Source of the DNA: an archaeon
GTDB lineage: Archaea > Asgardarchaeota > Heimdallarchaeia > Heimdallarchaeales > Kariarchaeaceae
Length of the DNA: 46,817 bases
NCBI GenBank assembly: GCA_024280435.1
Contig: JAJRQD010000110.1
Coordinates: forward strand, 1 to 46,817
Direction of reading: 5' to 3'
Program-made: the position numbers and the translations under genes
In this document: positions 2,799 to 19,436 of the stretch, piece after piece
How the letters are laid out: each line of letters starts with the position of its first letter
Numbering within the stretch: the first letter of the stretch is position 1
The notes under the pieces: model-generated
What the model was told of the DNA's origin: nothing
Databases searched by the model: none
What the model saw: the letters and a program-made list of their open reading frames with translations, nothing else

Positions 2799-5417
2799 TT
2801 ATTTTCTCCTGGTCTTTTCATTTAAATACATTGTAGCATTATCCTTTGTAATAGTTTGAATTTTTCTTCCTAAAACAATATTCACTATCTGACCTCCAAC
2901 TAAACCCCCAATCACTGTTAATGAAATAGTTGTAAATATCGAAAATTGTAAGTTTAACCCATTCAATAATAATCCATATGGTATATTATTTTTTAGATAT
3001 ATAATACCTAAATTTAACCCTATTATATTACCGATATATATTGCCTCGATCAATTTTCTAAAAATCTCCGAGGTATATTTTTTTCTTAAATAAATGTCTG
3101 ATAATCCTCTGGTACCAAGTTGCTTTAATTCTGCTTTAATATGATCTAGCCCAATTTGTCCGAATATCACATACGCTATTGGTAATATGAACAGCACAAA
3201 AATCAAATCCAATGTGATGAATAAATTTATAGATGGATTTTTTTCAATAAATGTATCAGAAGGTTTGCTAATAGATACATCATTCTCAGTTAATTTTAAT
3301 GATGCAAGTGTGTCCTCAATTGTTTTATCAAGAATATCTGAATTGGATGAAATTTCAGGTTTTAACTTTACTATGAAACCATTTGCTCCAGGTTTATAAT
3401 TTTTGTTTGATAATAATTCATTGAACAGATCATGTGATAATATAATTCCACTTATAAACTCATTTATTATTGGAAACTCATCTATTATACCAATTATTTC
3501 GAGGTTTTTTATTATTATCGTCTCTGTAACATGTGTGCTGGAATCCTCAAAATCTATGGAAATATCTATTTGATCACCTTTGCGAAAAACTCCTTGTGTA
3601 GCTAATTCTTGAGAAATAATCAAATTTTCACTTGTTAATTTCTGAACTAAATCCTCGAAATAATCTTCACCAAGGGCATGGTTCCATCTTGAATTCTCAG
3701 GTAATGAATAAAAAGTTTTATCAATAAAATTGAAATTAATATCTGAATAAGTTTTTTGTTCTTGAATTAAAGCTCCATATCCATGAGAAAATGGCACTAC
3801 TCTATCTATGGTAGCAACATTTTTATTAAGATTCAATAGATCGGTATTGCCAAAATAACCTTCAATTTTATTAATATTAAAATCACCTATGGGTGTTTCA
3901 GATGTTAAGGCATCATCAAGATAATTTTGACCTGTTTGTGCTGTGATGAGGAATATGATCAATGCGAACAATGATAATGTAATTACTCTTTGCCTGTTGA
4001 ATTTGCGTATTCCCCTGTTGAATAATCTAGTAACAAGTGGTTTTACATCATATAATGATTGTTGTTTGTGCTGTATATCCGGTTTCAATAAGACAATAAA
4101 TCCAAGTGAGATAATTATTAATCCTGCCATATCAATTATTTGATTAATTTTATTATTGAAAATTGGAAATACTACTTTAGGTAGAATAAATGTCATCAGC
4201 AGATTAACTGCAAAGGTTATTGTAATTGCAATCTTTGCAATTTTTATTCTAAATATTTTTGTGTCATTCTTCCCATGCTTTTCTATTTTAGGATTTTCGA
4301 TTGGTGATACCGAAATTATCTGATAGGCTTTAATACTTGCGATTGCAATAAATAACAATAAAAATACATCTATAATTATTTTGAAATCAAATAAAGATCC
4401 AAAAGTCAAAATAACTAGACTTGAAAAAAATATTGCTGATAAAATAGATATAATTAAATTTATAAACTCAATAATTAACAATAATTGTTGTATTTTTCTT
4501 ATTGACATACCCCTTGTCCATAATAGTCTAGATTTTTCTTTATGTTCTTTAGTCTCTTGAAAAAGAAGAGAAAATATGGCAAGTGCAATTAATAAGTTTG
4601 GAATACTAAGAATTTGTATTATAATTACCTGTTCTTCAATAAATCTGTCATAAGCATCAATTTCATTAGATACCATTGAGTTAAAGTAAATCTCGGTGTT
4701 TTTTATTGCATAAATAATTAATTCATCAAGAATTATTTTTTGATAATTTGCAATATAATCACGCAGTTCATCAATTGATTTCTGTTTGGTCCAACCATCT
4801 GGAAAGGTAGAAGCAATCATTACATTTACTTGATCAATGTCCACACTGTTTTTGCTCACAATTTCCCATCCTAATTCTATTGTTCCATACATTATATCTG
4901 GTTGAATAAAATCAAGATCAGTAAATATACTCTCTGTTATTATAATATCCCTGTACACATCATTATTTTCTATATTTGTAGGTAGAAAATTTATCGTGGA
5001 ATTATCAATTAATTTAATTTGATCATCAATTGAGGATAATTTGGAATTGGCATAGACTTCATTGGTATTCATATTAAATTTAGCTAATAAATCTGTTGAA
5101 AGCCCAATATAAGTCACGTTTGAGAATGTATTATTGATTAATACTTTTGCTTTTAAAAAAATAATAAAATTATTTAATTGTTGGTTTATCATATTTTCCT
5201 TCAATGTAAAAAATTTTGTACTGTCTATCTGTCCGCGTGATACAACAGTGAATAGATCTATATTGACAGCCTCTACATTATTAACCGTGCTATTATTTAA
5301 TGGAATTGTAATACCTATCAGAACCAATCCAATTAACATAAATAATACAAAATAAAGTAATATCGATTGTATATTGAACTTTATTGTACTTTTATAGAAT
5401 TTATATATTAATCGCAT
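2799..5417 (-). CDS. FtsX/MacB-like ABC exporter permease
   Basis: The product is an 872-residue membrane protein and the first gene of the three-gene exporter operon. A hydrophobic segment at about 15-38 is followed by a hydrophilic presumed extracytoplasmic domain (about 45-255), then a bundle of hydrophobic segments (about 260-450), a second segment at about 478-495, a second extracytoplasmic domain (about 500-735), and three C-terminal segments (from about 738). This duplicated arrangement is known for FtsX-family permeases with two MacB-periplasmic-like domains. It shares the RG(M/L)S sequence after the membrane bundle (LLWTRGMSIRKI, LGTRGLSDIYL), usual for the family. What it exports is not visible in the sequence. 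Confidence 0.85.
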   Translation of the reverse strand: MRLIYKFYKSTIKFNIQSILLYFVLFMLIGLVLIGITIPLNNSTVNNVEAVNIDLFTVVSRGQIDSTKFFTLKENMINQQLNNFIIFLKAKVLINNTFSNVTYIGLSTDLLAKFNMNTNEVYANSKLSSIDDQIKLIDNSTINFLPTNIENNDVYRDIIITESIFTDLDFIQPDIMYGTIELGWEIVSKNSVDIDQVNVMIASTFPDGWTKQKSIDELRDYIANYQKIILDELIIYAIKNTEIYFNSMVSNEIDAYDRFIEEQVIIIQILSIPNLLIALAIFSLLFQETKEHKEKSRLLWTRGMSIRKIQQLLLIIEFINLIISILSAIFFSSLVILTFGSLFDFKIIIDVFLLLFIAIASIKAYQIISVSPIENPKIEKHGKNDTKIFRIKIAKIAITITFAVNLLMTFILPKVVFPIFNNKINQIIDMAGLIIISLGFIVLLKPDIQHKQQSLYDVKPLVTRLFNRGIRKFNRQRVITLSLFALIIFLITAQTGQNYLDDALTSETPIGDFNINKIEGYFGNTDLLNLNKNVATIDRVVPFSHGYGALIQEQKTYSDINFNFIDKTFYSLPENSRWNHALGEDYFEDLVQKLTSENLIISQELATQGVFRKGDQIDISIDFEDSSTHVTETIIIKNLEIIGIIDEFPIINEFISGIILSHDLFNELLSNKNYKPGANGFIVKLKPEISSNSDILDKTIEDTLASLKLTENDVSISKPSDTFIEKNPSINLFITLDLIFVLFILPIAYVIFGQIGLDHIKAELKQLGTRGLSDIYLRKKYTSEIFRKLIEAIYIGNIIGLNLGIIYLKNNIPYGLLLNGLNLQFSIFTTISLTVIGGLVGGQIVNIVLGRKIQTITKDNATMYLNEKTRRK

Positions 5418-6399
5418 TTATTACTTTCTCACCATTATCCGAAATTAACAGAAATATAAACATTATCCATCAAGATTGGAAAGATATATAATTACAATTA
5501 TTATTAATATTGTATTTAATTATATTAAAATATGCCAAGTTTTTTTTTTGGAAAATAACATTAATTAACAATATAAAAGAACTAGCTTAATCATTAAATT
5601 ATACAGAAATCACTAAACATAGTAATACTCAAATCATTATTTTTACAAATATGTAACAGTATAAATTGTGTATTGATCAATCCGTAAAAAATTAACAAAA
5701 GCATATTGAAATTTATATACATGTGCATTTCTGATCAAATCCCAATATATATTAACAATGCAGACATTTCCAGGCTTCATTTTCAAATTGTGCAAATATA
5801 TGATAGTTTCTCACAAGAATAAAGTAGGTATTGTAGGACATGTCATCATAAAATTATCAACTGTTTTTATCAAGAAAGGCATAACTTCCAATAGAGTTGA
5901 AGGTGAATTTTGTAATTTCGATCTGAGTGTTCCAGTAAGTGGTAGAAAAAATTTCATTTCTTATCAGAATATGGTTGATAGATGGTTACAACCTGGTATT
6001 TCATTTGATGATATTAATTGTTATATGTTGCTTAAATCTGATTATGTTACAGATCCAACTGAAAGTATTTAATTAAATTTTAAAATTAAATATAGTATCA
6101 ACAGCTGATAAACACCTTATTTTCAGTAAGCTCTCTCAAAAATATGTTTACAATATATTTTTAATATTTTAATTTACTCACCAGAAGTCCTCTTTCCTTC
6201 ATGAAAATATTGAGGATCAGAAAAGAGTACCAGTGATAATTCCCTGTAAATTATTGATAAATAATGACTGTGGTAATTGTTCAACCCTTGTGTTTCAGTT
6301 CGTACTATTGTCTTTATTTTATTCGATATTACAAATTATTAGAATATCTATAGATAATATATTTATTTATGATGATGTCATCAAAAGAGTAGAAAATAT
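5418..6399. other. Long intergenic region between two divergently read ABC operons
   Basis: These 982 bases separate the minus-strand FtsX-type operon from the plus-strand ABC-2 operon and should hold both promoters. The sequence is very AT-rich, with a T9 run near 5532. One plausible small gene (5758-6072) is listed separately. In the last 80 bases before the ABC-2 ATPase there are TATA-like stretches (around 6352-6372), but none stands out as the single promoter. Confidence 0.6.
5758..6072 (+). CDS. Hypothetical 104-residue protein
   Basis: I do not recognise this protein. It encodes 104 residues starting MQTFPGFIFKLCKYM, with a middle section (VGIVGHVIIKLSTVFIKKG) and a mixed C-terminal half that includes VPVSGRKNFISYQNM. 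The composition looks like a soluble alpha/beta protein rather than random translation of AT-rich DNA, since Gly, Asp and Pro are well represented. No membrane segment or zinc site is apparent. It has no clear ribosome-binding site and stands alone between two operons. It could be a genuine orphan gene, the remains of a larger gene, or a chance reading frame. Confidence 0.35.
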   Translation: MQTFPGFIFKLCKYMIVSHKNKVGIVGHVIIKLSTVFIKKGITSNRVEGEFCNFDLSVPVSGRKNFISYQNMVDRWLQPGISFDDINCYMLLKSDYVTDPTESI

Positions 6400-7359
6400 A
6401 TGAGTGAATTGATAATTCAAGCAAAGCAGCTATCAAAGAAGTTTGGGGATTTTGAGGCTGTTAAGAAGGTAACACTTGAGATCCCCAAGGGAATTGTCTA
6501 TGGATTTCTTGGTCCAAATGGTGCAGGAAAGACAACATCTCTGAAAATGCTGACTGGATTGCTTATTCCAACCAGTGGGGAGATTAGAATTAATGATCTA
6601 GATCCGGGTAAATCAACTGATAATACAACTATCAAGAGTATGATAGGATTGATTCCACAGGAGATTGTGATTTGGGATGATCTGACAGTTCATGAGAATC
6701 TTATGCTGATGGCAGCAATCTATGAGGTTCCAAAGGATATTGCCAAGAAACGTGTGAAAAAGTTGATCTGTGATATACATCTTGAGGATAAAAGAGATAC
6801 ACTAGGCAAGAAATTATCTGGTGGATTGAAGAGAAGGTTGAATATAATCATGGCATTGGTACATGAACCGGAGATTGTAGTGTGTGATGAGCCCACTCCT
6901 GGTCTTGATCCACAATCACGTGCATTGGTATGGGATTTTATTCAGGATCTCACCCGAGTTAAGAATAAAACAGTGATTCTAACTACTCACTTCATGGAGG
7001 AGGCAGATAAACTATCTGATATAGTGGCAATCATAGACAATGGTGAGATACTGAAAATAGATACTCCAGATAATCTTAAGAATTCAATTGGAGAGGGAGA
7101 TCTTATAGAGATTAATCTTAATGATGATAATTTACTTGCTGAGGCAGAGAGAAGATTACAGGATTTCAAAGGATTGGAAGAGGTGCTGGTACGTGATAGC
7201 ATTCTCAGTGTTAGAACTCTGAATGCTCCCTCAAAACTGGCAAATATTCTTAATGCAATAGAAGCAATTGATGGTCTAGAGGTATCTGATATGAAGATAA
7301 GAAAAAGCACACTTGAGGATGTATTTTTGCATCTCACAGGTAGAAAGTTGAGGGAATAG
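6400..7359 (+). CDS. ABC-2 type transporter ATPase
   Basis: This is a 319-residue ATPase of the ABC-2 (drug/lipid/polysaccharide export) class. Walker A GPNGAGKTT is at 38-46, the Q-loop in IPQE near 86, signature LSGGLKRR at 139-146, Walker B VVCDEP at 160-165 followed by TPGLD, and the H-loop TTHF near 195. After the nucleotide-binding domain (to about 230) there is a C-terminal extension ending in TLEDVFLHLTGRKLRE, the usual tail of NatA/DrrA-like subunits. It is the first gene of a tight operon: two bases separate it from the next gene. It powers the two permeases downstream; the substrate is unknown. Confidence 0.93.
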   Translation: MSELIIQAKQLSKKFGDFEAVKKVTLEIPKGIVYGFLGPNGAGKTTSLKMLTGLLIPTSGEIRINDLDPGKSTDNTTIKSMIGLIPQEIVIWDDLTVHENLMLMAAIYEVPKDIAKKRVKKLICDIHLEDKRDTLGKKLSGGLKRRLNIIMALVHEPEIVVCDEPTPGLDPQSRALVWDFIQDLTRVKNKTVILTTHFMEEADKLSDIVAIIDNGEILKIDTPDNLKNSIGEGDLIEINLNDDNLLAEAERRLQDFKGLEEVLVRDSILSVRTLNAPSKLANILNAIEAIDGLEVSDMKIRKSTLEDVFLHLTGRKLRE

Positions 7360-7361
7360 CT

Positions 7362-8645
7362 ATGATCTCAAGTATTATGAACAAATTCTACAGGGAATTC
7401 ATCAGAAACAAGATCAGTATCGGATTAGTATTTGCATTTCCACTGTTCTTTCTTATCATTTTCAATGTATCTTTTGGAGGTACTGTGATCACCTCTGGTA
7501 GTACGTATGATATTGCAGTGATCAATGATGATAGTGGTATTCCAGGTGATATTGCAGCAGTTCTCAATAATACCGGATTTCCACAGAATTGGATTGAAGA
7601 TGGTATTGGTAAAAATCTTACTGATATAATTTTTGATATGAGATATGAGGAGGATGGAAAAGCATTATTCAACAGGGTTGTTGTTGACAGAGCAGATATT
7701 GATTCAGCTATTGAAAATGAGCTATCTTTGGTAATGATTATACCTGAGAATTTCTCACTGTCCATTCTTAATATACTGAATAACAATGCCAAATTAAGAA
7801 ATCAGAGTTCTATTCCATTTCTGGAGGTGGTATCTGCCACTATTGATATGTATGGTGATGAGAGATCTCAAGCTTTTGATATCTCAAAAACTATACTTCA
7901 GAACTTGATAAATACATTTATTGGATTTATTGGAGATGTGGATTTTGAGACGGGTAGTATTATAATCAATACAGAATCCATACTTCCAGTGAGAGAGGAT
8001 ATAACAATATTTGATTTTATTGCATCGGGTATATTTGTATTCGCTACTATACTTAGTACATCCTATTTTGCAGGATTAGTACTTACTGATGAGGAAAATG
8101 GAGTAATGGACAGGTACAAGGTATCATTGATCAATCCCCAGAAATATACCATTGCATTCTCTATATTTGCATTTGCAATCATGATGATACAGGCAGTATT
8201 CTTACTTGCTTCTGCATATTTTCTGTTTGGTTTCAAACCTGCAGGTTCCTTCATCTATGCATTCATAATATTGGTACTGTTATCTCTTGCAAATCTTGGA
8301 TTCATATTCACTGCAGGTGCATTTTTCAAATCATCAGACACTGCTGGATCTGTCATTGGATTTGCAAGCTCTATTCTTGGATTTGCATCGGGTTCATTCA
8401 TGAACATGCCAAAAATTGTTCTGATAAAAAATATATTACCATTTACAAGTGGCAGTCCCGATCTTTTACTATGGGATCTGTTACCATGGACCCATGCCAA
8501 TAATGCATTGAAGCTGGTGTTATTACTGGATTACAACTTATCAGAGGTGATTGGAGATCTGATACTTCTGGTAATTATGGGTATAGTATGGTATATTATC
8601 GGATTATACTATTATAGCAAACGCAGATTTGCAATCGAGGTGTAA
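7362..8645 (+). CDS. ABC-2 type transporter permease
   Basis: The product is a 427-residue permease with one N-terminal hydrophobic segment (about 18-38), a long extracytoplasmic domain (about 40-210), and a block of five or six hydrophobic segments (about 215-420). The segment order matches the ABC2_membrane_3 type. The sequence FAGLVLTDEENGVMDRYKVSLINP near the first helix of the bundle is the usual cytoplasmic coupling region, where an acidic pair precedes the short helix that touches the ATPase. It begins two bases after the ATPase stop and ends two bases before a second permease of the same length, so the active transporter is probably a heterodimer. Confidence 0.88.
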   Translation: MISSIMNKFYREFIRNKISIGLVFAFPLFFLIIFNVSFGGTVITSGSTYDIAVINDDSGIPGDIAAVLNNTGFPQNWIEDGIGKNLTDIIFDMRYEEDGKALFNRVVVDRADIDSAIENELSLVMIIPENFSLSILNILNNNAKLRNQSSIPFLEVVSATIDMYGDERSQAFDISKTILQNLINTFIGFIGDVDFETGSIIINTESILPVREDITIFDFIASGIFVFATILSTSYFAGLVLTDEENGVMDRYKVSLINPQKYTIAFSIFAFAIMMIQAVFLLASAYFLFGFKPAGSFIYAFIILVLLSLANLGFIFTAGAFFKSSDTAGSVIGFASSILGFASGSFMNMPKIVLIKNILPFTSGSPDLLLWDLLPWTHANNALKLVLLLDYNLSEVIGDLILLVIMGIVWYIIGLYYYSKRRFAIEV

Positions 8646-10693: not shown

Positions 10694-11620
10694 TTGTCTA
10701 ATTTCAATATTGAAGCAAGTCCAGAAGTTCAATTTATTGATATTTTTGATCTATCGATAATAGAGATGGCTACTTTGAGCCACTTGATAACATTATCTAA
10801 GAAAATACTACGATATGATCTTTATAAAGAAATCAATGGATTACTCTCTCCCCACAAAAAATTATCAACCTCCAGTTTTTATAACAGTTTACAGAAACTT
10901 GAGAAAAAAAAATATATCAAGTTTGAAAAAATTGATAATAAAGATCCCAAATCATTGGCAGTTCATAAAACTGCATTAACTGAGAAAGTACTGGGATATA
11001 TGTTCTATTATTTCACACAGTATCAGATTAAATCTCCAAAGGTGAAAGCAGCAAAATCATTGACAATTATTCAACAACTTTGTAAGAGAAATAGTTTCAA
11101 CAATGTGATGATTATTGATCCCGAGACACAGGGTTCCACTAAACTGATTGCTTCAATAATTCCATCTGCTGTGGAAACTGTGAAAGCAATAGGTAAAATT
11201 AGCAGGAGTGTATATTTACTCTCTACAAGGGAGCTATACGATTATTATCTTAATCAGAGTGTTGATAAAGTAATATCAGGTGGAGAAGAAGGATCAGTTG
11301 ATAAATTTGATTTGATCATCTTTCCACTTTATAATCGTAATTTTGAGTATAATAGTATTGATCATAAAGAGATACTTATTGAGATAAAGCGTTTATTAAG
11401 TGCAGATGGTAGTTTAATTATACTACATCTGGAGAAACTAGATGATGGTGGTAACTATATTATCAAGCATTTCATAGATTCCCTCTCAAAATCAGGCTAT
11501 TTTGATCCCATAGATGGTGATTATTTCAAATACCAGTTAGAGAAACTGAAATTCAAAGAAGTACGTAAACAGTTGCAAGATGGTGTTAATTATATCGTTG
11601 CAAAATCAGGAAACAATTGA
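10694..11620 (+). CDS. Winged-helix protein fused to a Rossmann-like (methyltransferase-like) domain
   Basis: The product is 308 residues and starts at a TTG codon. Residues about 22-95 look like a PadR/MarR-type winged helix (YDLYKEINGLL, SSFYNSLQKLEKKKYIKFEK), with the wing near 75-90. The remainder resembles a class I methyltransferase fold: NVMIIDPE at about 137, KFDLIIFPLYN at about 207 in the position of motif IV, and an LLSADGSLIILHLEKL segment near 235 matching the strand that follows in such enzymes. The usual glycine-rich SAM loop is not visible, so enzymatic activity is doubtful. It could be a ligand-sensing regulator. It converges on the membrane RING gene, ending one base from its stop. 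Confidence 0.6.
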   Translation: MSNFNIEASPEVQFIDIFDLSIIEMATLSHLITLSKKILRYDLYKEINGLLSPHKKLSTSSFYNSLQKLEKKKYIKFEKIDNKDPKSLAVHKTALTEKVLGYMFYYFTQYQIKSPKVKAAKSLTIIQQLCKRNSFNNVMIIDPETQGSTKLIASIIPSAVETVKAIGKISRSVYLLSTRELYDYYLNQSVDKVISGGEEGSVDKFDLIIFPLYNRNFEYNSIDHKEILIEIKRLLSADGSLIILHLEKLDDGGNYIIKHFIDSLSKSGYFDPIDGDYFKYQLEKLKFKEVRKQLQDGVNYIVAKSGNN

Positions 11621-11621
11621 A

Positions 11622-12842
11622 TTATAATTTACCTATCATTTTAGCATAATCTTTCTCATTTACTCTCAATCGCTTATTTAGTTTACCTTTCATATCCTTG
11701 GCACATCTGGGGCAATGTGATGATTGAAATAGCCATTGGTTCAATTCTTCCTCGTGTGCAGGGTATTTACAAAGAGGGCAGAGTGTGACTGTCATCATAC
11801 TTTTGCTCTCAAATTCTGTATAGCAGATCATACACTTCAAATCATCTTTGGATACATTTCCAGAGGGTAGCAGGTTCTGATCCAATTTAGCCCTTCTTTT
11901 TACTGCTTTTGGCTTGGTCACAATCTCAATTCCATCACTGACAGCAGCTACATTTCTTGGTTTACTTACCTTATTATTTTTAGATTTAGCAGTTTTTGAG
12001 GATGTTTTTTTATTCCCTGAGACCGTGGGCACAGCTCTGGTCTTCTTCTCCTTTTTCTTCTTCCTGCTAGTGGTGGGAACTGTTCTGTATCCACTTGATG
12101 GAGCTGTTGATATACTTCTTCTTTTCTTTCTCTCGCCTCTCTGCGATGGTCTGCTTGGAGTGATAGTCCTCTGTCTTGGAGGTGTGTAGTCTGATCTTCT
12201 TGATGGTGATCTACTAAGACTGTTGATATACTGTCTTCTTGCAGTATCATCGTATTCAGACTTGAACATTGGTCTGATCAGATATGCAATCACCTGTATA
12301 AAATACATAAGTAGTATTAAAACTGAGTTTAATCCGATAAATTCGATCTCAATTGCAATAATAATAATTATCACAATAGTCAAAGTATTGAAGAAAAGAG
12401 GAAATTTAACTGGACCATGTAATTTTCTCTTCAGCACAAATCCTGTGTATCTTTTCTGATAATACCTTGCAGTTAACATAATTGACAGTGCTGATAATGG
12501 TATAACCAGTAGAGACACAGCAGATATATTGAATTGTAAACTACCTCTGGATTCAAATAATTGGAACATAAAGCCATAGGATGATAATATCTGTGCAACT
12601 ATGATATTAATATATGGAATTATCAGGAACTGAGAGCTGGCTATGACTGCATTGTTCTGCCTGTAATATATCCACTCTGATAACAGATGTAGATAACTGT
12701 TCAGAAGGAGTGTAAGCATAACAATTGATCGTGAGAAATATTCATCATCAACAACATACCATTCGAGTAATGCGGTCACAATTCCTGTAATGGTTATTGC
12801 TATATGAATTTCCTTTCTCATCAATTTAGTTTCACATTCCAT
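11622..12842 (-). CDS. Membrane protein with C-terminal RING-like zinc finger (candidate ubiquitin E3 ligase)
   Basis: The 406-residue protein has about six hydrophobic segments in residues 10-190, then a very basic Ser/Arg/Lys-rich linker (about 195-320), then a cysteine-rich domain: C337-x2-C340, C355-x2-C358, H363 and C377-x2-C380, with EELNQWL between H363 and the last pair. The pattern CxxC...CPLC...H..EL..WL...CPRC is like RING and related treble-clef fingers, though only seven candidate ligands are plain, so an eighth (for example H376) must be assumed. It is the last gene of the E2 > JAMM operon, 21 bases after the JAMM stop. Small RING proteins are known partners of archaeal E1/E2/Rpn11 clusters; here the finger is attached to a membrane anchor. 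Ligase activity is inference. Confidence 0.75.
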   Translation of the reverse strand: MECETKLMRKEIHIAITITGIVTALLEWYVVDDEYFSRSIVMLTLLLNSYLHLLSEWIYYRQNNAVIASSQFLIIPYINIIVAQILSSYGFMFQLFESRGSLQFNISAVSLLVIPLSALSIMLTARYYQKRYTGFVLKRKLHGPVKFPLFFNTLTIVIIIIIAIEIEFIGLNSVLILLMYFIQVIAYLIRPMFKSEYDDTARRQYINSLSRSPSRRSDYTPPRQRTITPSRPSQRGERKKRRSISTAPSSGYRTVPTTSRKKKKEKKTRAVPTVSGNKKTSSKTAKSKNNKVSKPRNVAAVSDGIEIVTKPKAVKRRAKLDQNLLPSGNVSKDDLKCMICYTEFESKSMMTVTLCPLCKYPAHEEELNQWLFQSSHCPRCAKDMKGKLNKRLRVNEKDYAKMIGKL

Positions 12843-12863
12843 AAAGAATAACTTTTCTATTGC

Positions 12864-13607
12864 CTAGTACTCGAAGTACTGTTGTTTTTTACCTTTTAAT
12901 GCAGGTTGGATCAGCCTTAATGTCTCATATGCTGCACCTGGTATCATCCCCTCAACCTCTGTTGATAATTCAGTATAAGACTGTCGTAACTGTGCAGATG
13001 GTTTATCAGATATATTTCTGAATACTGCATATCCATAGTCTGTAGAGCTAATCTCAGTGGGATCAATCACAATTGCAATTGATTTACCCCAGAGCCCCTG
13101 ATATCTTGCCTGTGTCTCATAATCATCAATTGATAAAAAGTTACCATAGCTTGGATGAGAATGATACCATCCCACAATATAAGTCTGAGTGCCAGTGATC
13201 TTGCTCACAATATCTGTGAATGATCTTGACTCCATAATTGAAACTGATACTGCATCTCCATGACCAACGGGCCATACATCTGTGATCACAATCTGCTCAA
13301 GTGGTGTATTCTCATTTATCACATACCCTGTAAGCAATCCGATTACCTCTACCCATTTTTTGGGCTTTATATCTTTATTTGCATATTTTTTGGCATGCAG
13401 TGCCATCTTGAGGTATGCCTGAGAATGTAATTTGACAAGTACTCTGTCATTTTCTGTGTGCAGGTCAGTATCATCCAATTCCAGGCTGTTATCCTTCTCA
13501 TGAGATGATACATTCATATCAGTATCTCCCACCAGGACAGATAGTTTATCCTCAACAGTCTCAATACGTTTGAGTAATTTAATATAATCTTCTGGTATTT
13601 TAGACAT
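12864..13607 (-). CDS. JAMM/MPN metalloprotease, Rpn11-like deubiquitinase
   Basis: The product is 247 residues long. An N-terminal acidic coiled-coil-like tail (1-55) precedes an MPN domain with all JAMM zinc residues: E87 in EVIG, H149 and H151 in HSHP, then S159 and D162, fitting H-x-H-x7-S-x2-D exactly. VGWYHSHPSYGNFLSIDD is strongly Rpn11/Csn5-like. Family members cut the isopeptide bond at the C-terminus of ubiquitin. The ATG follows the E2 stop directly (TAAATG), so translation is coupled to E2, and the RING-like gene comes next. Its job is probably to recycle or process the modifier attached by this E1/E2 pair (inference). Confidence 0.92.
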   Translation of the reverse strand: MSKIPEDYIKLLKRIETVEDKLSVLVGDTDMNVSSHEKDNSLELDDTDLHTENDRVLVKLHSQAYLKMALHAKKYANKDIKPKKWVEVIGLLTGYVINENTPLEQIVITDVWPVGHGDAVSVSIMESRSFTDIVSKITGTQTYIVGWYHSHPSYGNFLSIDDYETQARYQGLWGKSIAIVIDPTEISSTDYGYAVFRNISDKPSAQLRQSYTELSTEVEGMIPGAAYETLRLIQPALKGKKQQYFEY

Positions 13608-14141
13608 TTAATCCCATCCCTTCTTGGCATATTTTTTGGTGATCTGCTCTGCCTTCTTCTTGAAATCTTTCTTGGATTTCATCACCTGTATTGCTGCTTT
13701 CTTGTTGAAAACATCTGATGGATTGAAAAATGCACCATCGACATTAAGCATGGCAATTATTGACTGGATAACAGTACCAATATTCTTAGAGGGGGTCCAT
13801 CCACCATTTTTTCCCACAAGTTCCTGATCTACCAGTGCTAGACAAATATTACGCTTTCCTGGATATTCTTTTGGATTGGGCCAGAAATTAGGGTGCCATA
13901 TGGGTGTGTGAAGACGCACAAATGGTGGCTTATAGGGATAATTCGGCCCATACTTCACCTCAAGTTTGTATAGCCCCTTTGCATAGGGTGTGCTTTTAGG
14001 CCCTTCGAATGTGATTGCAAGGTGTTCCACAGTTTTTTTTGCATTTCCAGGGTAGCCTTTTACCTGCTTGATGACCTTTTTTTTGTGCAATGTTTTAAGA
14101 ATTTTATAATCGTCTGCAATTCTTTTCTGTCTGATACTCAT
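13608..14141 (-). CDS. E2 ubiquitin-conjugating enzyme (UBC fold)
   Basis: This is a 177-residue UBC-fold protein. The HPN motif is at 83-85, the catalytic cysteine is C100 in NICLALV, and the following GGWTPSKNIGTVIQSIIAML and FNPSDVFNKKAA match the conserved WxP helix and the PNPxxPLNxEAA turn of true E2s. YPYKPPFVR before HPN is also typical. Between HPN and C100 there are 14 residues, whereas the usual E2 spacing is about seven, so a short loop (PKEYPGK) is inserted beside the active site. It is first in the operon E2 > JAMM > RING. The ATG has a GAGGAG ribosome-binding site and a TATA box about 35 bases upstream. Confidence 0.95.
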   Translation of the reverse strand: MSIRQKRIADDYKILKTLHKKKVIKQVKGYPGNAKKTVEHLAITFEGPKSTPYAKGLYKLEVKYGPNYPYKPPFVRLHTPIWHPNFWPNPKEYPGKRNICLALVDQELVGKNGGWTPSKNIGTVIQSIIAMLNVDGAFFNPSDVFNKKAAIQVMKSKKDFKKKAEQITKKYAKKGWD

Positions 14142-14173
14142 GTAGTCTCCTCTAACAGAAATTACAACTGAAT

Positions 14174-14183
14174 TATATATAAA
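14174..14183 (-). promoter_or_regulatory. TATA box of the E2 operon
   Basis: On the minus strand the sequence TTTATATATA lies about 35 bases upstream of the E2 ATG, the right place for an archaeal TATA box feeding a short leader. A purine-rich GAGGAG ribosome-binding site follows at 14148-14153. The shared 27-base element (14192-14218) is eight bases further upstream. Confidence 0.65.
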
Positions 14184-14191
14184 GTATTACT

Positions 14192-14218
14192 AACACACAA
14201 ATACAAAAACCCAATAAT
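14192..14218 (-). promoter_or_regulatory. Shared upstream element, copy at the E2 operon
   Basis: On the minus strand this reads ATTATTG, one variable base (G), then GTTTTTGTATTTGTGTGTT. The same 27 bases with a single difference occur upstream of E1 at 18921-18947. It ends 50 bases before the E2 ATG, next to the TATA box. Its length and conservation exceed what a BRE would need, so it is a candidate operator or activator site. Confidence 0.75.
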
Positions 14219-14248
14219 TTCACTATTTTTATCATTTCAGATATTAAT

Positions 14249-14782
14249 CTATTTTCTTCTCAAATATACTGGAATTAGCAATGCAAATGGTATTAAGCTA
14301 GTGGTCATACTGGTTTTTTCATTCTCTGTATTGTCAATAGAGCTAGCACTGGATATATCTATCTCATAGTAGAAAATCCCGGTGTACGGCTCTGCAATCG
14401 CCATGCCAAAATCAAGTTGTTCATCACCAGGGAGAGTTACCTTGCTATCATCGTTATATTTGATAATAACATCAAAGCCTATTGTTGCATCTGAAGTTTC
14501 CTCAACTGTAAAGCTAGTGGTGTATGTATTTCCATCCTTTGTCAGTATCATATAAGGTGTGTGACACAGATATTCAGGTGTCAGTTTACAATAAAATGAA
14601 TCCACACTGGTGATATTGCTACTATCCCCAAAAGTTACGCTGATTGTTACTTTACTTCCTTGATATACAGTTTGAGGACTGTAGGTGATTGATGTTATCC
14701 CATGTGGATTTGCAGATGAATTGCTAACAGAGGTCATGAATACCAATAAAATGGATAATATTACCCGTAAATTCCTGTTCAC
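14249..14782 (-). CDS. Secreted or surface-anchored protein with immunoglobulin-like fold
   Basis: The 177-residue protein begins with a signal peptide (hydrophobic 6-24, ending SNSSANP) and ends with a hydrophobic stretch plus basic cluster (SLIPFALLIPVYLRRK), the layout of a surface protein held by a C-terminal anchor. Between them, VYQGSKVTISVTFGD and FTVEETSDATIGFDVIIKYND alternate hydrophobic and polar residues as in a single beta-sandwich (Ig-like) domain with two cysteines (C65 and C73) that could pair. It lies between the AlkD-like gene and the E2 operon on the same strand, but 107 bases and a promoter separate it from E2. The function is unknown. Confidence 0.7.
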   Translation of the reverse strand: MNRNLRVILSILLVFMTSVSNSSANPHGITSITYSPQTVYQGSKVTISVTFGDSSNITSVDSFYCKLTPEYLCHTPYMILTKDGNTYTTSFTVEETSDATIGFDVIIKYNDDSKVTLPGDEQLDFGMAIAEPYTGIFYYEIDISSASSIDNTENEKTSMTTSLIPFALLIPVYLRRK

Positions 14783-14818
14783 TGAATTTTATATATTTTG
14801 AGATAGCAATAAATATTT

Positions 14819-15640
14819 CTAGGATTTTTTGTATTTAATGTACAAATCGATAATCTCTTCTATCTTATTTGTATCAAGTCTTTTGGATGCCTCTCTCAAC
14901 TCTGTCTTCGAGAAATACTGGTAATTATCCAGAAGGTAGTTGTATATCATATCTGCATGCGATTGACTAATAGTTCTCAATAACCATGGGAATGATTTTC
15001 TTACATAGTAATTCTTATCTGTTTTCAGATAGTTTATCTGTGTGATGATAAATTCTGCATTGTTATTGGTATGTTTCAGCAATGCAGTCACACAGAGCCT
15101 TCTTCTCCAGAAATTATCTGATACTCTCCATAACTGGATTGTATCTCTGATCTGATCATCAATGTTCAGATGTTTGATTACATTAATGCATAAATGATCT
15201 GAGCTTGTCCAGTGATCCACCTCATCAATCCATTTCTGATCGATATGTTTGAATAGTTGGATTGAGTTGTTTTTTATCAGCTTTCTGTATTTCTCAAGCA
15301 GGAAAAATACAAAAACTCGCATCTCTATACTTTTAGCACTCATAAACAGTTTATCCACATTAGCAATCAATTCTTCAAATTCAATATTCTTATTCTTTTT
15401 GTAAACATATGTGGCATATTTTTTCAGACTACCATTACTTATTCCCATACCATACAGAGAGGTGATATCACCTGCCAATGCAGTCTGGATAAATCTCGTC
15501 TTACTTTCTTTGTTCTGATCTGAGTTTTCAGGATTATTTATCCATTTTTGAATTATTTCCCAATTCATGAGTATAGTTATTGTTTCCCGAATTTTTATTA
15601 GCTTTCTTGTGGATGGATAAAAAAATATCTCTTTTATCAT
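14819..15640 (-). CDS. AlkD-like HEAT-repeat protein (putative DNA glycosylase)
   Basis: The product is 273 residues by the longest reading; an internal ATG at 15568 (MNWEIIQKW) would give 249 and is perhaps the better start, since the first 24 residues look unlike the family. The body is all helical. The motifs DHWTSSDHLC (about 139-148), WRVSDNFWRRRLCVTALL (about 170-187) and YYVRKSFPWLLR (about 211-222) match the DNA alkylation repair enzyme AlkD, which excises cationic alkylated bases through stacked HEAT repeats. Whether the catalytic Trp/Asp/Trp set is complete cannot be settled by eye: one Trp and a downstream Asp are present at the expected site. Confidence 0.72.
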   Translation of the reverse strand: MIKEIFFYPSTRKLIKIRETITILMNWEIIQKWINNPENSDQNKESKTRFIQTALAGDITSLYGMGISNGSLKKYATYVYKKNKNIEFEELIANVDKLFMSAKSIEMRVFVFFLLEKYRKLIKNNSIQLFKHIDQKWIDEVDHWTSSDHLCINVIKHLNIDDQIRDTIQLWRVSDNFWRRRLCVTALLKHTNNNAEFIITQINYLKTDKNYYVRKSFPWLLRTISQSHADMIYNYLLDNYQYFSKTELREASKRLDTNKIEEIIDLYIKYKKS

Positions 15641-15688
15641 TCTGCTTGAAAAAGATTAAATCATATGTGAGAATTTGCAATATATTGT

Positions 15689-16450
15689 ATGCAGGAAAGA
15701 TTGAAGGATTTACTAGGACTTACAACTAACGAGACAAAGGTATATATTGCTCTGCTATCCTCTCCACTGGCAGATCCGCTGACAATCTCACAGGATACTA
15801 AACTGGCACGAACAAGAGTGTATGAGGTTTTATCAAAGCTTATTTCAAAAAATCTAGTTGACAAAACAACTGATGGATACCGGGTAGTGCATCCACAGAC
15901 TGCAATTGAGCTGATGCAGGAAAAAATACATCTTCATACACAGAACAGAATTGATGCACTGACTGAATTGATACCTCACTTGACTGATGTGTGGAGAGAG
16001 GCAGCAATTGATGTGGTGTCCCCTGGAATTGAGATCATGTCCTATGTGGATATAGAGGCTGGCTATCTGAAAGAACTGGAGAATATACAGTGCCGAGTGT
16101 ATATAGCAGCATCTGACTCAACGGGTGGTATCAATTGGAAAAAGAGTGGAGAGCGATTGGCAAAGGCTTATAAGAAGGATCTTGATATAAAATATCTGTA
16201 TTCTGATAGTAAAATGGCTGAAAAGATGATTTTTGCATTCAAGCATTTTGTACCCTTCAGTAATTTGAATATAAAAATACGATCCAATGCAGAGTTGAAA
16301 TCATCTTTTATTCTACTGGATAATAAATTGTATATCTTTTTTATGGCAACAGATACTTTCTCCACCAAAGTACTATCTGTAAATAGTTCGGAAATGATAC
16401 AGACATTTGAGTGGATATTCTCCAGAATGTGGAAAGAGGCAATTAAATGA
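15689..16450 (+). CDS. TrmB-family transcriptional regulator
   Basis: The product is 253 residues long. An N-terminal winged helix (about 5-72: LGLTTNETKVYIALL, then LARTRVYEVLSKLISKNLV) is the classic TrmB/Sugar-specific regulator domain. A short helical linker (about 78-110) leads to a C-terminal domain with beta/alpha features (VYIAASDSTGGINW, IKYLYSDSKMAEKM), of the phospholipase D-like type found in many TrmB proteins. It is 63 bases upstream of the polytopic membrane protein on the same strand, so it may regulate that gene (inference). The start ATG has no strong ribosome-binding site, as in leaderless archaeal transcripts. Confidence 0.85.
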   Translation: MQERLKDLLGLTTNETKVYIALLSSPLADPLTISQDTKLARTRVYEVLSKLISKNLVDKTTDGYRVVHPQTAIELMQEKIHLHTQNRIDALTELIPHLTDVWREAAIDVVSPGIEIMSYVDIEAGYLKELENIQCRVYIAASDSTGGINWKKSGERLAKAYKKDLDIKYLYSDSKMAEKMIFAFKHFVPFSNLNIKIRSNAELKSSFILLDNKLYIFFMATDTFSTKVLSVNSSEMIQTFEWIFSRMWKEAIK

Positions 16451-16513
16451 TATACACTCAGTTTCGGAATTACCTGTAACATCTCTTATTATATTATAGT
16501 AAATCAATCATAT

Positions 16514-17602
16514 ATGAATTGGCAGATTATCTTTCCCATATTCACCACAAGTATATCCTTTCTGTTTTTCATTTCCGTGACAGAGCAGTATATTCGTAAA
16601 AAGAAACCACAACAATTAATGTGGTCAATATCAATGTTTCTATTCTTCATCACCGCAGGTGCTGAGGCAGTCAGTCTGATAACTGGTAATTGGAATACCA
16701 TGGTATATCGTACCTATTATCTATTTGCAGCGATCCAGGTATCATTGATGGGTGTTGGTCTTCTGTATCTGTTCACAAGAAGAAATGTGATACATGGCAG
16801 AAATGCAGCTAAGGCAGTTTTGATATTCTGGGGTATTTGGCTACTGTTCTCATCATTATTCATTGCAAGAGATCCAATATTCTATCTTGTGTATATCCCA
16901 TCTCTGATACTGATAGCCCTGTCTGTTGTTTACATATCAGTTGATATTGTTGATAGGTTAAAAAATGTGTCTAGCACCATCTGCAGCTCATGTAAAAGGG
17001 AGATGAAGGATAGTTGTGATGAATGTGAGTGGGGCAAAGTAATTGAAAGTTATCAATCATCAAAATATACCCGATTATTCCAGCGAGTATTCAAAGGTGA
17101 TAATTTCAGTCATCTCTTTCTATTAAACATTGTATTCTTATTTATGTTGATGAACCTGTATGTATGGACCTTACCATTGCAAGAGGATCTCTTGAGTACT
17201 GGAAAAGAGGTAAGCGGTATTCCATGGCAGCCTGCTGATAATCCCGATGGACCAAGGGCAATTATCAGATTATTCTCACCATTGCACACTGTACCCGGTG
17301 CTATTGCACTCATAGGTGGTGGAATATACTCATATATCACATGGCAGATGGCAATCAAGAGGAATACAGGATCATTTGAGCCAAATAAAGGAGTGTACAA
17401 TCTGTATATCGCAATTGGTGCATATGTGCTTGCACTTGGTGCCACCTTATCTGGATATGGTCTTGGTACACTCTACATCAGTGAGGTTATCTCAGTATCA
17501 TTCATGTATTTTGGTTTCCTCGAATCAGATAAGATGACATATAAAGTGTTCAAAGATCTGTTCAAATTCAGAAATAAAAAAGTTCATATCAGTGGTGACT
17601 GA
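16514..17602 (+). CDS. Polytopic membrane protein with a cytoplasmic Cys4 loop
   Basis: I do not recognise the family. The 362-residue protein has seven or more hydrophobic segments (about 5-22, 37-57, 66-86, 101-118, 123-145, 199-216, 265-285, 300-350). Between the fifth and sixth lies a hydrophilic loop with C157-x2-C160-x7-C168-x2-C171 (CSSCKREMKDSCDEC), a plausible zinc knuckle. The arrangement suggests a membrane sensor or receptor with a metal-stabilised loop. It follows the TrmB-type regulator on the same strand and converges on the E1 gene with 28 bases between them. Confidence 0.6.
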   Translation: MNWQIIFPIFTTSISFLFFISVTEQYIRKKKPQQLMWSISMFLFFITAGAEAVSLITGNWNTMVYRTYYLFAAIQVSLMGVGLLYLFTRRNVIHGRNAAKAVLIFWGIWLLFSSLFIARDPIFYLVYIPSLILIALSVVYISVDIVDRLKNVSSTICSSCKREMKDSCDECEWGKVIESYQSSKYTRLFQRVFKGDNFSHLFLLNIVFLFMLMNLYVWTLPLQEDLLSTGKEVSGIPWQPADNPDGPRAIIRLFSPLHTVPGAIALIGGGIYSYITWQMAIKRNTGSFEPNKGVYNLYIAIGAYVLALGATLSGYGLGTLYISEVISVSFMYFGFLESDKMTYKVFKDLFKFRNKKVHISGD

Positions 17603-17630
17603 TAAACAAGATATAATGATATAAAAAATT

Positions 17631-18869
17631 CTACTTAAGTATTAATCTAAGATAGATGGCATCATTTTCGGATTTGGGTACCTTATCAAAGCCTGTTATC
17701 ATCAATGTCTCCTGATCTCTTATTTTAGCCTCTGCCAGTGTCATATTCGTCTCAATCTCCTCCATATCCTTGGCATCCACTCTCCAAACCATTGGCTCAA
17801 ATTCTGGATCATATTTGAAGCCCTTCTTGGATAACAAGAGCAAAATTGTGGATAAAGTGGTTGATTTTGGAGTTTTTAATTTGATAACCCTCGGTGCGTT
17901 AGGTCCACAGGTATCACATTTTTTGTTCTGAGGCTTGGGAAAGCTGAAGAAATTTGATCCCAACCCGTTATATATAGTGTAGTGATAGGGTAGTAGACCA
18001 AGTTCTGTTCCATGTATGTGGTGAAGTATCTTTAAAACATCCTGTGATTGAATTGATGCGATGACTGCATTGATTGTAATAATTGCAGGTTCATGATGAT
18101 CTATCTTCTTGACCGCATCATCAACAGTGAAGGGCTCCTCATGTGGAAAATGCTCTTTTAGCAATTTATTTGCATAATCAAGTACTATTTTCACCTCATC
18201 CAATTTATCGGCCTCTGGCAATCTACCATTCTCACTCTCGTAGAATAACTGTCCTTTCAACATACAGTGTGATTTCTTCCTTGGTATACCAACAAGGGTA
18301 CATGCAGCAAGATCCTCCTGTTCTCTCTCACGCATGGGGTCACAGGCAAGGCATGAATTTTTCTCTGGGAAGTATGTATAGATATGTCCATTGTAATTGG
18401 CAGTACCACCGTCCACAAGAGGTTTTCTGAACAATACCGCACGTCTGTTCAGCTCTACTCTTGCATTCACACTATCAAGACCTCCGATCAGTAGATCCAC
18501 CTCCTCATATATCTTTGGATCTATCTCCTGCAATGCCATGAAATGTGGGATATACTCTCCGAATGGGTTCAATCTTTTCAGCATCTTGGCAGCTGCAACA
18601 GCTTTACCCTCTCCTTCCTCAGCATCAAGAAACAATATCTGTCTGTTTAGATTTGAATATTCAATTGTATCCATATCTACCAGATGAATAGTGCCAACAC
18701 CGGCCATCGCCAGGTTTTTTGCTATCTCAGTACCAAGACCACCCACACCTGCAATCAATACCTTTGATTTTTTCAGTGCAGCCTGGTTCCAACCGGGTAG
18801 ACGTAATTGTCTATCCATTCTCTCTGTTTCCTTATCACTCATTGCATCTGAGAAAAAATTGTTCTTCAT
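17631..18869 (-). CDS. E1-like ubiquitin-activating enzyme with C-terminal ubiquitin-fold domain
   Basis: The 412-residue protein has the E1/ThiF adenylation fold: GVGGLG at 41-46, D65 in VDMD, NRQ at 75-77, K89 and D132 (GLDSVNAR). Two CxxC pairs, C173/C176 and C318/C321, form the structural zinc site. C190 in AACTLVGIPRKKSHC aligns with the catalytic cysteine of UBA3 (CTIASTPR). Residues about 325-412 follow the second CxxC and end in LAEAKIRDQETLMITG, resembling the ubiquitin-fold domain that recruits E2 in eukaryotic E1s. MoeB/ThiF proteins lack this domain. It is probably transcribed alone, from a promoter that shares its upstream element with the E2 operon, and has an AGGAG ribosome-binding site. 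Confidence 0.93.
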   Translation of the reverse strand: MKNNFFSDAMSDKETERMDRQLRLPGWNQAALKKSKVLIAGVGGLGTEIAKNLAMAGVGTIHLVDMDTIEYSNLNRQILFLDAEEGEGKAVAAAKMLKRLNPFGEYIPHFMALQEIDPKIYEEVDLLIGGLDSVNARVELNRRAVLFRKPLVDGGTANYNGHIYTYFPEKNSCLACDPMREREQEDLAACTLVGIPRKKSHCMLKGQLFYESENGRLPEADKLDEVKIVLDYANKLLKEHFPHEEPFTVDDAVKKIDHHEPAIITINAVIASIQSQDVLKILHHIHGTELGLLPYHYTIYNGLGSNFFSFPKPQNKKCDTCGPNAPRVIKLKTPKSTTLSTILLLLSKKGFKYDPEFEPMVWRVDAKDMEEIETNMTLAEAKIRDQETLMITGFDKVPKSENDAIYLRLILK

Positions 18870-18901
18870 ATATAATACTCCTATACAAATAAATTGCAGA
18901 A

Positions 18902-18911
18902 TATTATAAAA
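18902..18911 (-). promoter_or_regulatory. TATA box of the E1 gene
   Basis: The minus strand reads TTTTATAATA about 36 bases before the E1 ATG, at the same place relative to the shared upstream element (10 bases) as in the E2 promoter. A TAGGAG ribosome-binding site follows close to the start codon. Confidence 0.6.
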
Positions 18912-18920
18912 GAATTATTC

Positions 18921-18947
18921 AACACACAAATACAAAAACGCAATAAT
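18921..18947 (-). promoter_or_regulatory. Shared upstream element, copy at E1
   Basis: On the minus strand this reads ATTATTG, a variable base (C), then GTTTTTGTATTTGTGTGTT. It matches the element at 14192-14218 at 26 of 27 positions and ends 51 bases before the E1 ATG, against 50 for E2. Sequence on either side diverges, so the match reflects selection rather than a recent duplication of the whole region. Confidence 0.75.
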
Positions 18948-19248
18948 ATACGAATATTCTCCTATTTTCTATCCTTCTTTTATTAGAAGTATTATTGGAA
19001 ATTCTTGATTTAATAAGTTATGATATTTGAAACGTGTAATTTTGTAAAATTAATGCCTAAAACACCAAACCATATGTAACACCCACTTATCAAGAATATT
19101 TTTTTTCTTGATTATTTCGAGTGTGTATTCACTCAATTATCATGTGACGCCTACTTTTTACATATTAATTTAGAATATAGTGCAGTTTATACATTGAATA
19201 TTAGATAATTTGCTATAAGTAACGCCTATATGGATTATAGTTCATTTA

Positions 19249-19395
19249 GTGAAGAAGAAGAAAAAAGGTAAATCTTATCTTTTTTTGAGGCAAAATCATA
19301 GAATAGATGGTAAATCTCGGCAAAAATGGGTTGTCTATCTAGGTCCAGAAGGTGATGATGAAAAGATTAAATCAAATTCATCCAATTACTTTTGA
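19249..19395 (+). pseudogene. Transposase N-terminal fragment
   Basis: From a GTG the frame encodes 48 residues (VKKKKKGKSYLFLRQNHRI, then DGKSRQKWVVYLGPEGDDEK) before TGA. The order basic stretch, YLFL, R-DGK-RQ, YLGP is what one sees at the start of several archaeal and bacterial transposases of the IS1634/IS4-like group. No continuation is found after the stop. It is taken as the remains of an insertion sequence. Confidence 0.45.
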
Positions 19396-19436
19396 ATAAA
19401 TTATTATTTTAAGTTAGATTACTAAGCACTCTAAAA

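Follow-up and report, generated by a model that had tools for sequence, protein, structure and literature searches.

Background

In budding yeast, the genes of the ubiquitin-proteasome system, including those of the proteasome itself, are coordinated by Rpn4 through PACE (GGTGGCAAA), a short promoter element that these genes share. Among archaea, the Tgr/TrmBL1 regulon of the Thermococcales is marked by TGM, a palindromic site in the promoters of sugar-metabolism genes, which, within one functional set, lies either upstream of the BRE/TATA or downstream of the TATA box, depending on the promoter. Heimdall-type Asgard archaea are among the closest known relatives of eukaryotes. The ubiquitin operon of Caldiarchaeum and the ubiquitin-ESCRT gene clusters of Asgard archaea have already been described (PMC5654768, PMC6043591, PMC9192718). 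In the literature searched, we found no description of a regulator or promoter element for archaeal ubiquitin clusters, nor of how transcription of a complete E1-E2-E3 ubiquitin system is controlled in any archaeon; neither "promoter" nor "transcription" occurs in the main text of the 2022 Asgard paper.

The locus described here contains the same kinds of genes, co-located, as the Caldiarchaeum operon and the Asgard ubiquitin-ESCRT clusters. Its promoters carry an element with the core TTTGTGTGTT. This element is similar to PACE in being short and common to ubiquitin-pathway genes, but it has a different sequence and, whereas PACE reaches proteasome genes, the proteasome promoters lack it. PACE/Rpn4 is a functional analogue and not a relative; there is no sign of common descent. 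Like TGM, the element is an archaeal site that lies on the upstream side of the TATA box at some genes and on the downstream side at others. Unlike TGM, it marks ubiquitin genes and is non-palindromic, with respect to the sequence of both the core and the full 27-mer.

Sequences and genomes

The window (the whole stretch of DNA that was analysed) is 46,817 nt in length and belongs to a Kariarchaeaceae archaeon of the Heimdallarchaeales (GCA_024280435.1, contig JAJRQD010000110.1), whose assembly of 4.03 Mb is referred to below as the window genome. The family sample consists of nine genomes (30 Mb), most of which are fragmented. G001 belongs to the same genus as the window genome (g1), while G004, G005, and G008 are family genomes of g4/g5.

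Genes and promoters in the window

Two copies of a 27-bp element are present on the minus strand, one upstream of an E1 gene and one upstream of an E2 operon that spans positions 11622-14141 (Table 1). Both are found exactly where a preliminary description of this DNA had placed them, with the identity that it had reported (26/27 bases, i.e. one base different). The distances that it had given are likewise confirmed: the TATA-like boxes begin 8-9 nt downstream of the element (8-10 bases claimed) and the ATG codons 50 and 51 nt downstream (50-51 bases claimed).

Table 1. Positions of the promoter elements and of the genes behind them in the window.
Feature	Position	Strand	Basis or remark
27-bp element, E2-operon copy, ATTATTGGGTTTTTGTATTTGTGTGTT	14192-14218	-	core TTTGTGTGTT at 14192-14201
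27-bp element, E1 copy, ATTATTGCGTTTTTGTATTTGTGTGTT	18921-18947	-	core TTTGTGTGTT at 18921-18930
TATA-like box, E2 operon, TTTATATA	14176-14183	-	begins 8 nt after element
TATA-like box, E1, TTTTATAA	18904-18911	-	begins 9 nt after element
Ribosome-binding-site-like GAGGAG, E2	14147-14152	-	sequence
Ribosome-binding-site-like AGGAG, E1	18878-18882	-	sequence
E1-like ubiquitin-activating enzyme, ThiF family, 412 aa	17631-18869	-	Pfam PF00899, E 8e-53; orthologues
E2 ubiquitin-conjugating enzyme (UQ_con), 177 aa	13608-14141	-	Pfam PF00179, E 1.5e-23; orthologues
JAMM/MPN (Rpn11-like) deubiquitinase, E2-operon gene 2	12864-13607	-	Pfam PF01398; kept after E2
Hydrophobic N-terminal part and C-terminal RING, E2-operon gene 3, candidate E3	11622-12842	-	zf-RING_2, weak (sub-cut-off)

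The 27-mer was not matched in dinucleotide shuffles of the window when up to 3 mismatches were allowed, and at the same threshold the whole 4.03-Mb assembly contains only the two window copies. The preliminary description had argued that the flanks of the two copies do not match and that the element is thus under selection. This is true of the 5' flanks, which are unrelated (global alignment against shuffles, P 0.43-0.50), but not of the 3' flanks, which show a weak likeness beyond that of shuffles (P = 0.001) and hold a TATA box and a ribosome-binding site at matching spacing. The 3' likeness may be due to this shared spacing or to promoter copying, so descent from one copied promoter is conceivable for the window pair alone. 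Such copying would mean that a segment was duplicated before E1 and E2 when the operon broke up, and that the 27-bp identity largely reflects recent shared ancestry and not selection for a binding site. A gapped local alignment of the pair does extend over about 88 nt, and the spacings of TATA box, ribosome-binding site, and ATG agree. We nevertheless consider this explanation rather unlikely: besides the unrelated 5' flanks, other genera carry the core in promoters that otherwise do not align and in which its position, copy number, and orientation differ. Copying could account for the origin of the pair, but not for the family-wide restriction of the element to the ubiquitin pathway.

The organization of the genes behind the element varies within the family. 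In G004 and G008, Ub-Ub-E1-E2-JAMM-RING form a single run, and the G001 locus starts with Ub-Ub-E1. The window genome and G005 have a split set, with ubiquitin, E1, and E2 on separate stretches or contigs. The RING gene holds the same place after the JAMM gene in relatives. G007 (93% complete) is without a close Ub, E1, or E2 match.

The ubiquitin genes of the family (window-genome contigs C142, C115, and C187; locus L055; G005 contig C427) do not have a plain GG end, but end in ...VSTAG (VSIAG in C187), to which a short tail (AGRVA, RGAL, AI, or HY) is often added. Trimming of this tail may be a task of the JAMM enzyme encoded in the E2 operon. A second, distant group of ubiquitin-like, E1-like, and E2-like genes lies close together at positions 2919-8641 of locus L258 (contig C88 of the window genome); family genomes that lack the main ubiquitin system also have distant E1-like and E2-like matches.

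The intergenic region at 18990-19400 of the window contains hairpins (ATCAAG...CTTGAT and GAGTG..CACTC) and recurring TAACRCC(C/T)A words. A short reading frame within it appears to resemble the N-terminus of an IS4-type transposase, and the region looks like mobile-element debris.

The core element in relatives

Within the family, the core, which is often extended to GTTTGTGTGTT(T/G)GTG, occurs at one or more ubiquitin-system promoters in the window genome, G001, G004, G005, and G008. It is present in the promoters of E1, E2, and ubiquitin in G005 and in the ubiquitin promoters of G004 and G008, while the promoter of the G001 Ub-Ub-E1 operon has two direct copies and one inverted partial copy. 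A second ubiquitin gene of G005 (contig C169) has a one-base variant of the core as well as an inverted copy upstream of the TATA box. The core is not found in the promoters of two further G005 ubiquitin genes (C409 and C118), and the G003 ubiquitin promoter has only a reversed 9-mer. It is also not found in the promoter of the window-genome ubiquitin paralogue on C187, where there is just a reversed 9-base match. This is the sole readable ubiquitin promoter of the window genome: its closest ubiquitin orthologues (C142 and C115) are both truncated at contig ends, and no contig joining the 5' ends of these two genes was found in the assembly.

The position of the site differs between genera. 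In g1 it is upstream of the TATA box, abutting the promoter, and in g4/g5 it is between the TATA box and the predicted transcription start. Four ubiquitin promoters, from two genera, have the core exactly 27 nt downstream of the start of their TATA-like box, which would put it at about the transcription start. The core at the predicted start is followed in the leaders of the G004, G005, and G008 ubiquitin genes by hairpins of differing sequence. In the G005 E2 leader (L169, 8987-9030), a perfect hairpin, GATGAAT-AGTG-ATTCATC, is found right after the core (z -3.3). An element that works at the RNA level, with the core as the mRNA 5' end and the following hairpin controlling the translation or stability of ubiquitin-pathway messages, would have this appearance. 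We regard this explanation as improbable, more so than promoter copying: the sites in the window and in G001 precede the TATA box and would lie outside the transcript, the hairpins vary in strength as well as sequence (in the ubiquitin leaders, z ranges from -0.7 to -2.2), and the window region has no Rfam match.

The preliminary description had asked whether the element is conserved in related genomes. Within the family, the same pathway carries it; outside the family it is absent from the other Heimdall families, including sister families in which the same operon is present. In one of these sister families (f4), no element common to the E2 and Ub/E1 promoters is evident by eye. A search of 80 loci of other Heimdall and Loki genomes with the 9-mer gave 9 matches in 1.18 Mb, 3 of them in Kariarchaeaceae loci.

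Rarity and specificity of the element

The bare 10-mer core has 78 matches in the nine genomes (30 Mb), about equal to the reversed control, and shows no genome-wide enrichment; most of the matches inspected lie inside ORFs. By arithmetic from these genome-wide counts, the chance of finding the core in a 200-nt upstream region on the same strand is approximately 2.6e-4. All three promoter sets outside the selection of the core (G001; G004 and G008, counted once; and G005 ubiquitin) carry it. A longest-common-substring test against shuffled promoters gave P values of only 0.01-0.04 per promoter, because the motif is GT-rich and the shuffles retain that composition. A better control is provided by counts over whole genomes.

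With no more than 1 mismatch, the consensus GTTTGTGTGTTNGTG, which was picked after the sites had been seen, has only 11 matches in the nine family genomes (30 Mb). Six of the 11 are in ubiquitin-system promoters (twice in G001, and once each at G005 E1, G005 E2, G004 Ub, and G008 Ub); all of the remaining five lie within ORFs. G007, in which no ubiquitin system was detected, has no match. The hundreds of unrelated sites against which the preliminary description had cautioned are thus not seen. In the window genome, the genus-type 18-mer is found at 24 sites when up to 3 mismatches are allowed, and only at E1 and E2 does an ORF longer than 70 aa start within 200 nt downstream.

The preliminary description had predicted further sites upstream of ubiquitin or proteasome genes. 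The first part of this prediction is borne out by the ubiquitin promoters of G005, G004, G008, and G001. The second is not: the proteasome loci (L249-L253) have no good site, with best weight-matrix scores of 3.6-11.2 versus 17.4-19.1 at the window sites. No good site was found in the second E1/E2-like cluster (L258).

A TATA box or start site always adjoins the element, as would be expected of a general promoter or start-site signal (a BRE or initiator variant) that is not specific to a pathway. This explanation is largely refuted, and we consider it the least probable of the alternatives: every intergenic consensus match in the family is at a ubiquitin-system promoter, the proteasome and second E1-cluster regions are without the element, core counts do not exceed the reversed-control level, and the distance to the TATA box is not constant.

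The third-best match in the window genome (contig C329, L259 positions 5964-5981) has 1 mismatch in 18 nt and lies approximately 8 nt before a TATA-like box. No ORF within 200 nt of this site exceeds 70 aa, and there is no Rfam match; an ArsR-like gene is located approximately 480 nt beyond it. The orphan site possibly marks a small RNA or a stranded promoter. Apart from this site, which has no clear gene, the element is rare or absent at unrelated promoters.

A putative regulator of ubiquitin conjugation

The sites are rare, and among promoters they are restricted to the ubiquitin pathway. Sites that are repeated, sometimes inverted, beside the TATA box or start and confined to a single pathway are the trace expected of a DNA-binding regulator, and the element probably represents the operators for one putative transcription factor dedicated to ubiquitin conjugation in the Kariarchaeaceae. 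That a protein binds, that it is a single protein, the sign of its action, and its response to a signal are all inferred from this pattern. In the proposed mechanism, one sequence-specific factor would bind the element as double-stranded DNA and control ubiquitin, E1, and E2-JAMM-RING, with the operator core repeated, sometimes inverted, around the TATA box. The ancestral arrangement would have been one operator heading a Ub-Ub-E1-E2-JAMM-RING operon. Where this operon has been broken up (the window genome and G005), the separate units would each have their own operator, so that co-regulation would be kept.

A repressor is slightly favoured over an activator, since the sites of g4/g5 lie between the TATA box and the start and those of g1 a short way upstream of the TATA box. 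The factor might also activate in g1, or its sign might depend on position; the shift from upstream to downstream of the TATA box between genera fits one factor with one sign only loosely.

The proposal that a dedicated transcription factor coordinates the ubiquitin genes, made in the preliminary description from the window alone, is strengthened by the shared site in independent family genomes, including at ubiquitin promoters; the factor itself was not found. Two genes of the window were rejected as candidates: a TrmB-like gene (15689-16450), which is also present in G007, and the gene for a protein at 10694-11620, which has a patchy distribution. Neither occurs at the relatives' ubiquitin loci examined.

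Conclusions

On balance, we favour the view that Heimdall-type archaea have a dedicated regulator of ubiquitin conjugation, and that its operator preserved the co-regulation of the genes once the operon had broken up. A pathway-specific operator is a handle for fishing out this regulator, and it is also a route to establishing when these archaea use ubiquitin (in stress, protein turnover, or ESCRT work). Eukaryotes, too, have taken the step from a single operon to genes that are scattered yet co-regulated.
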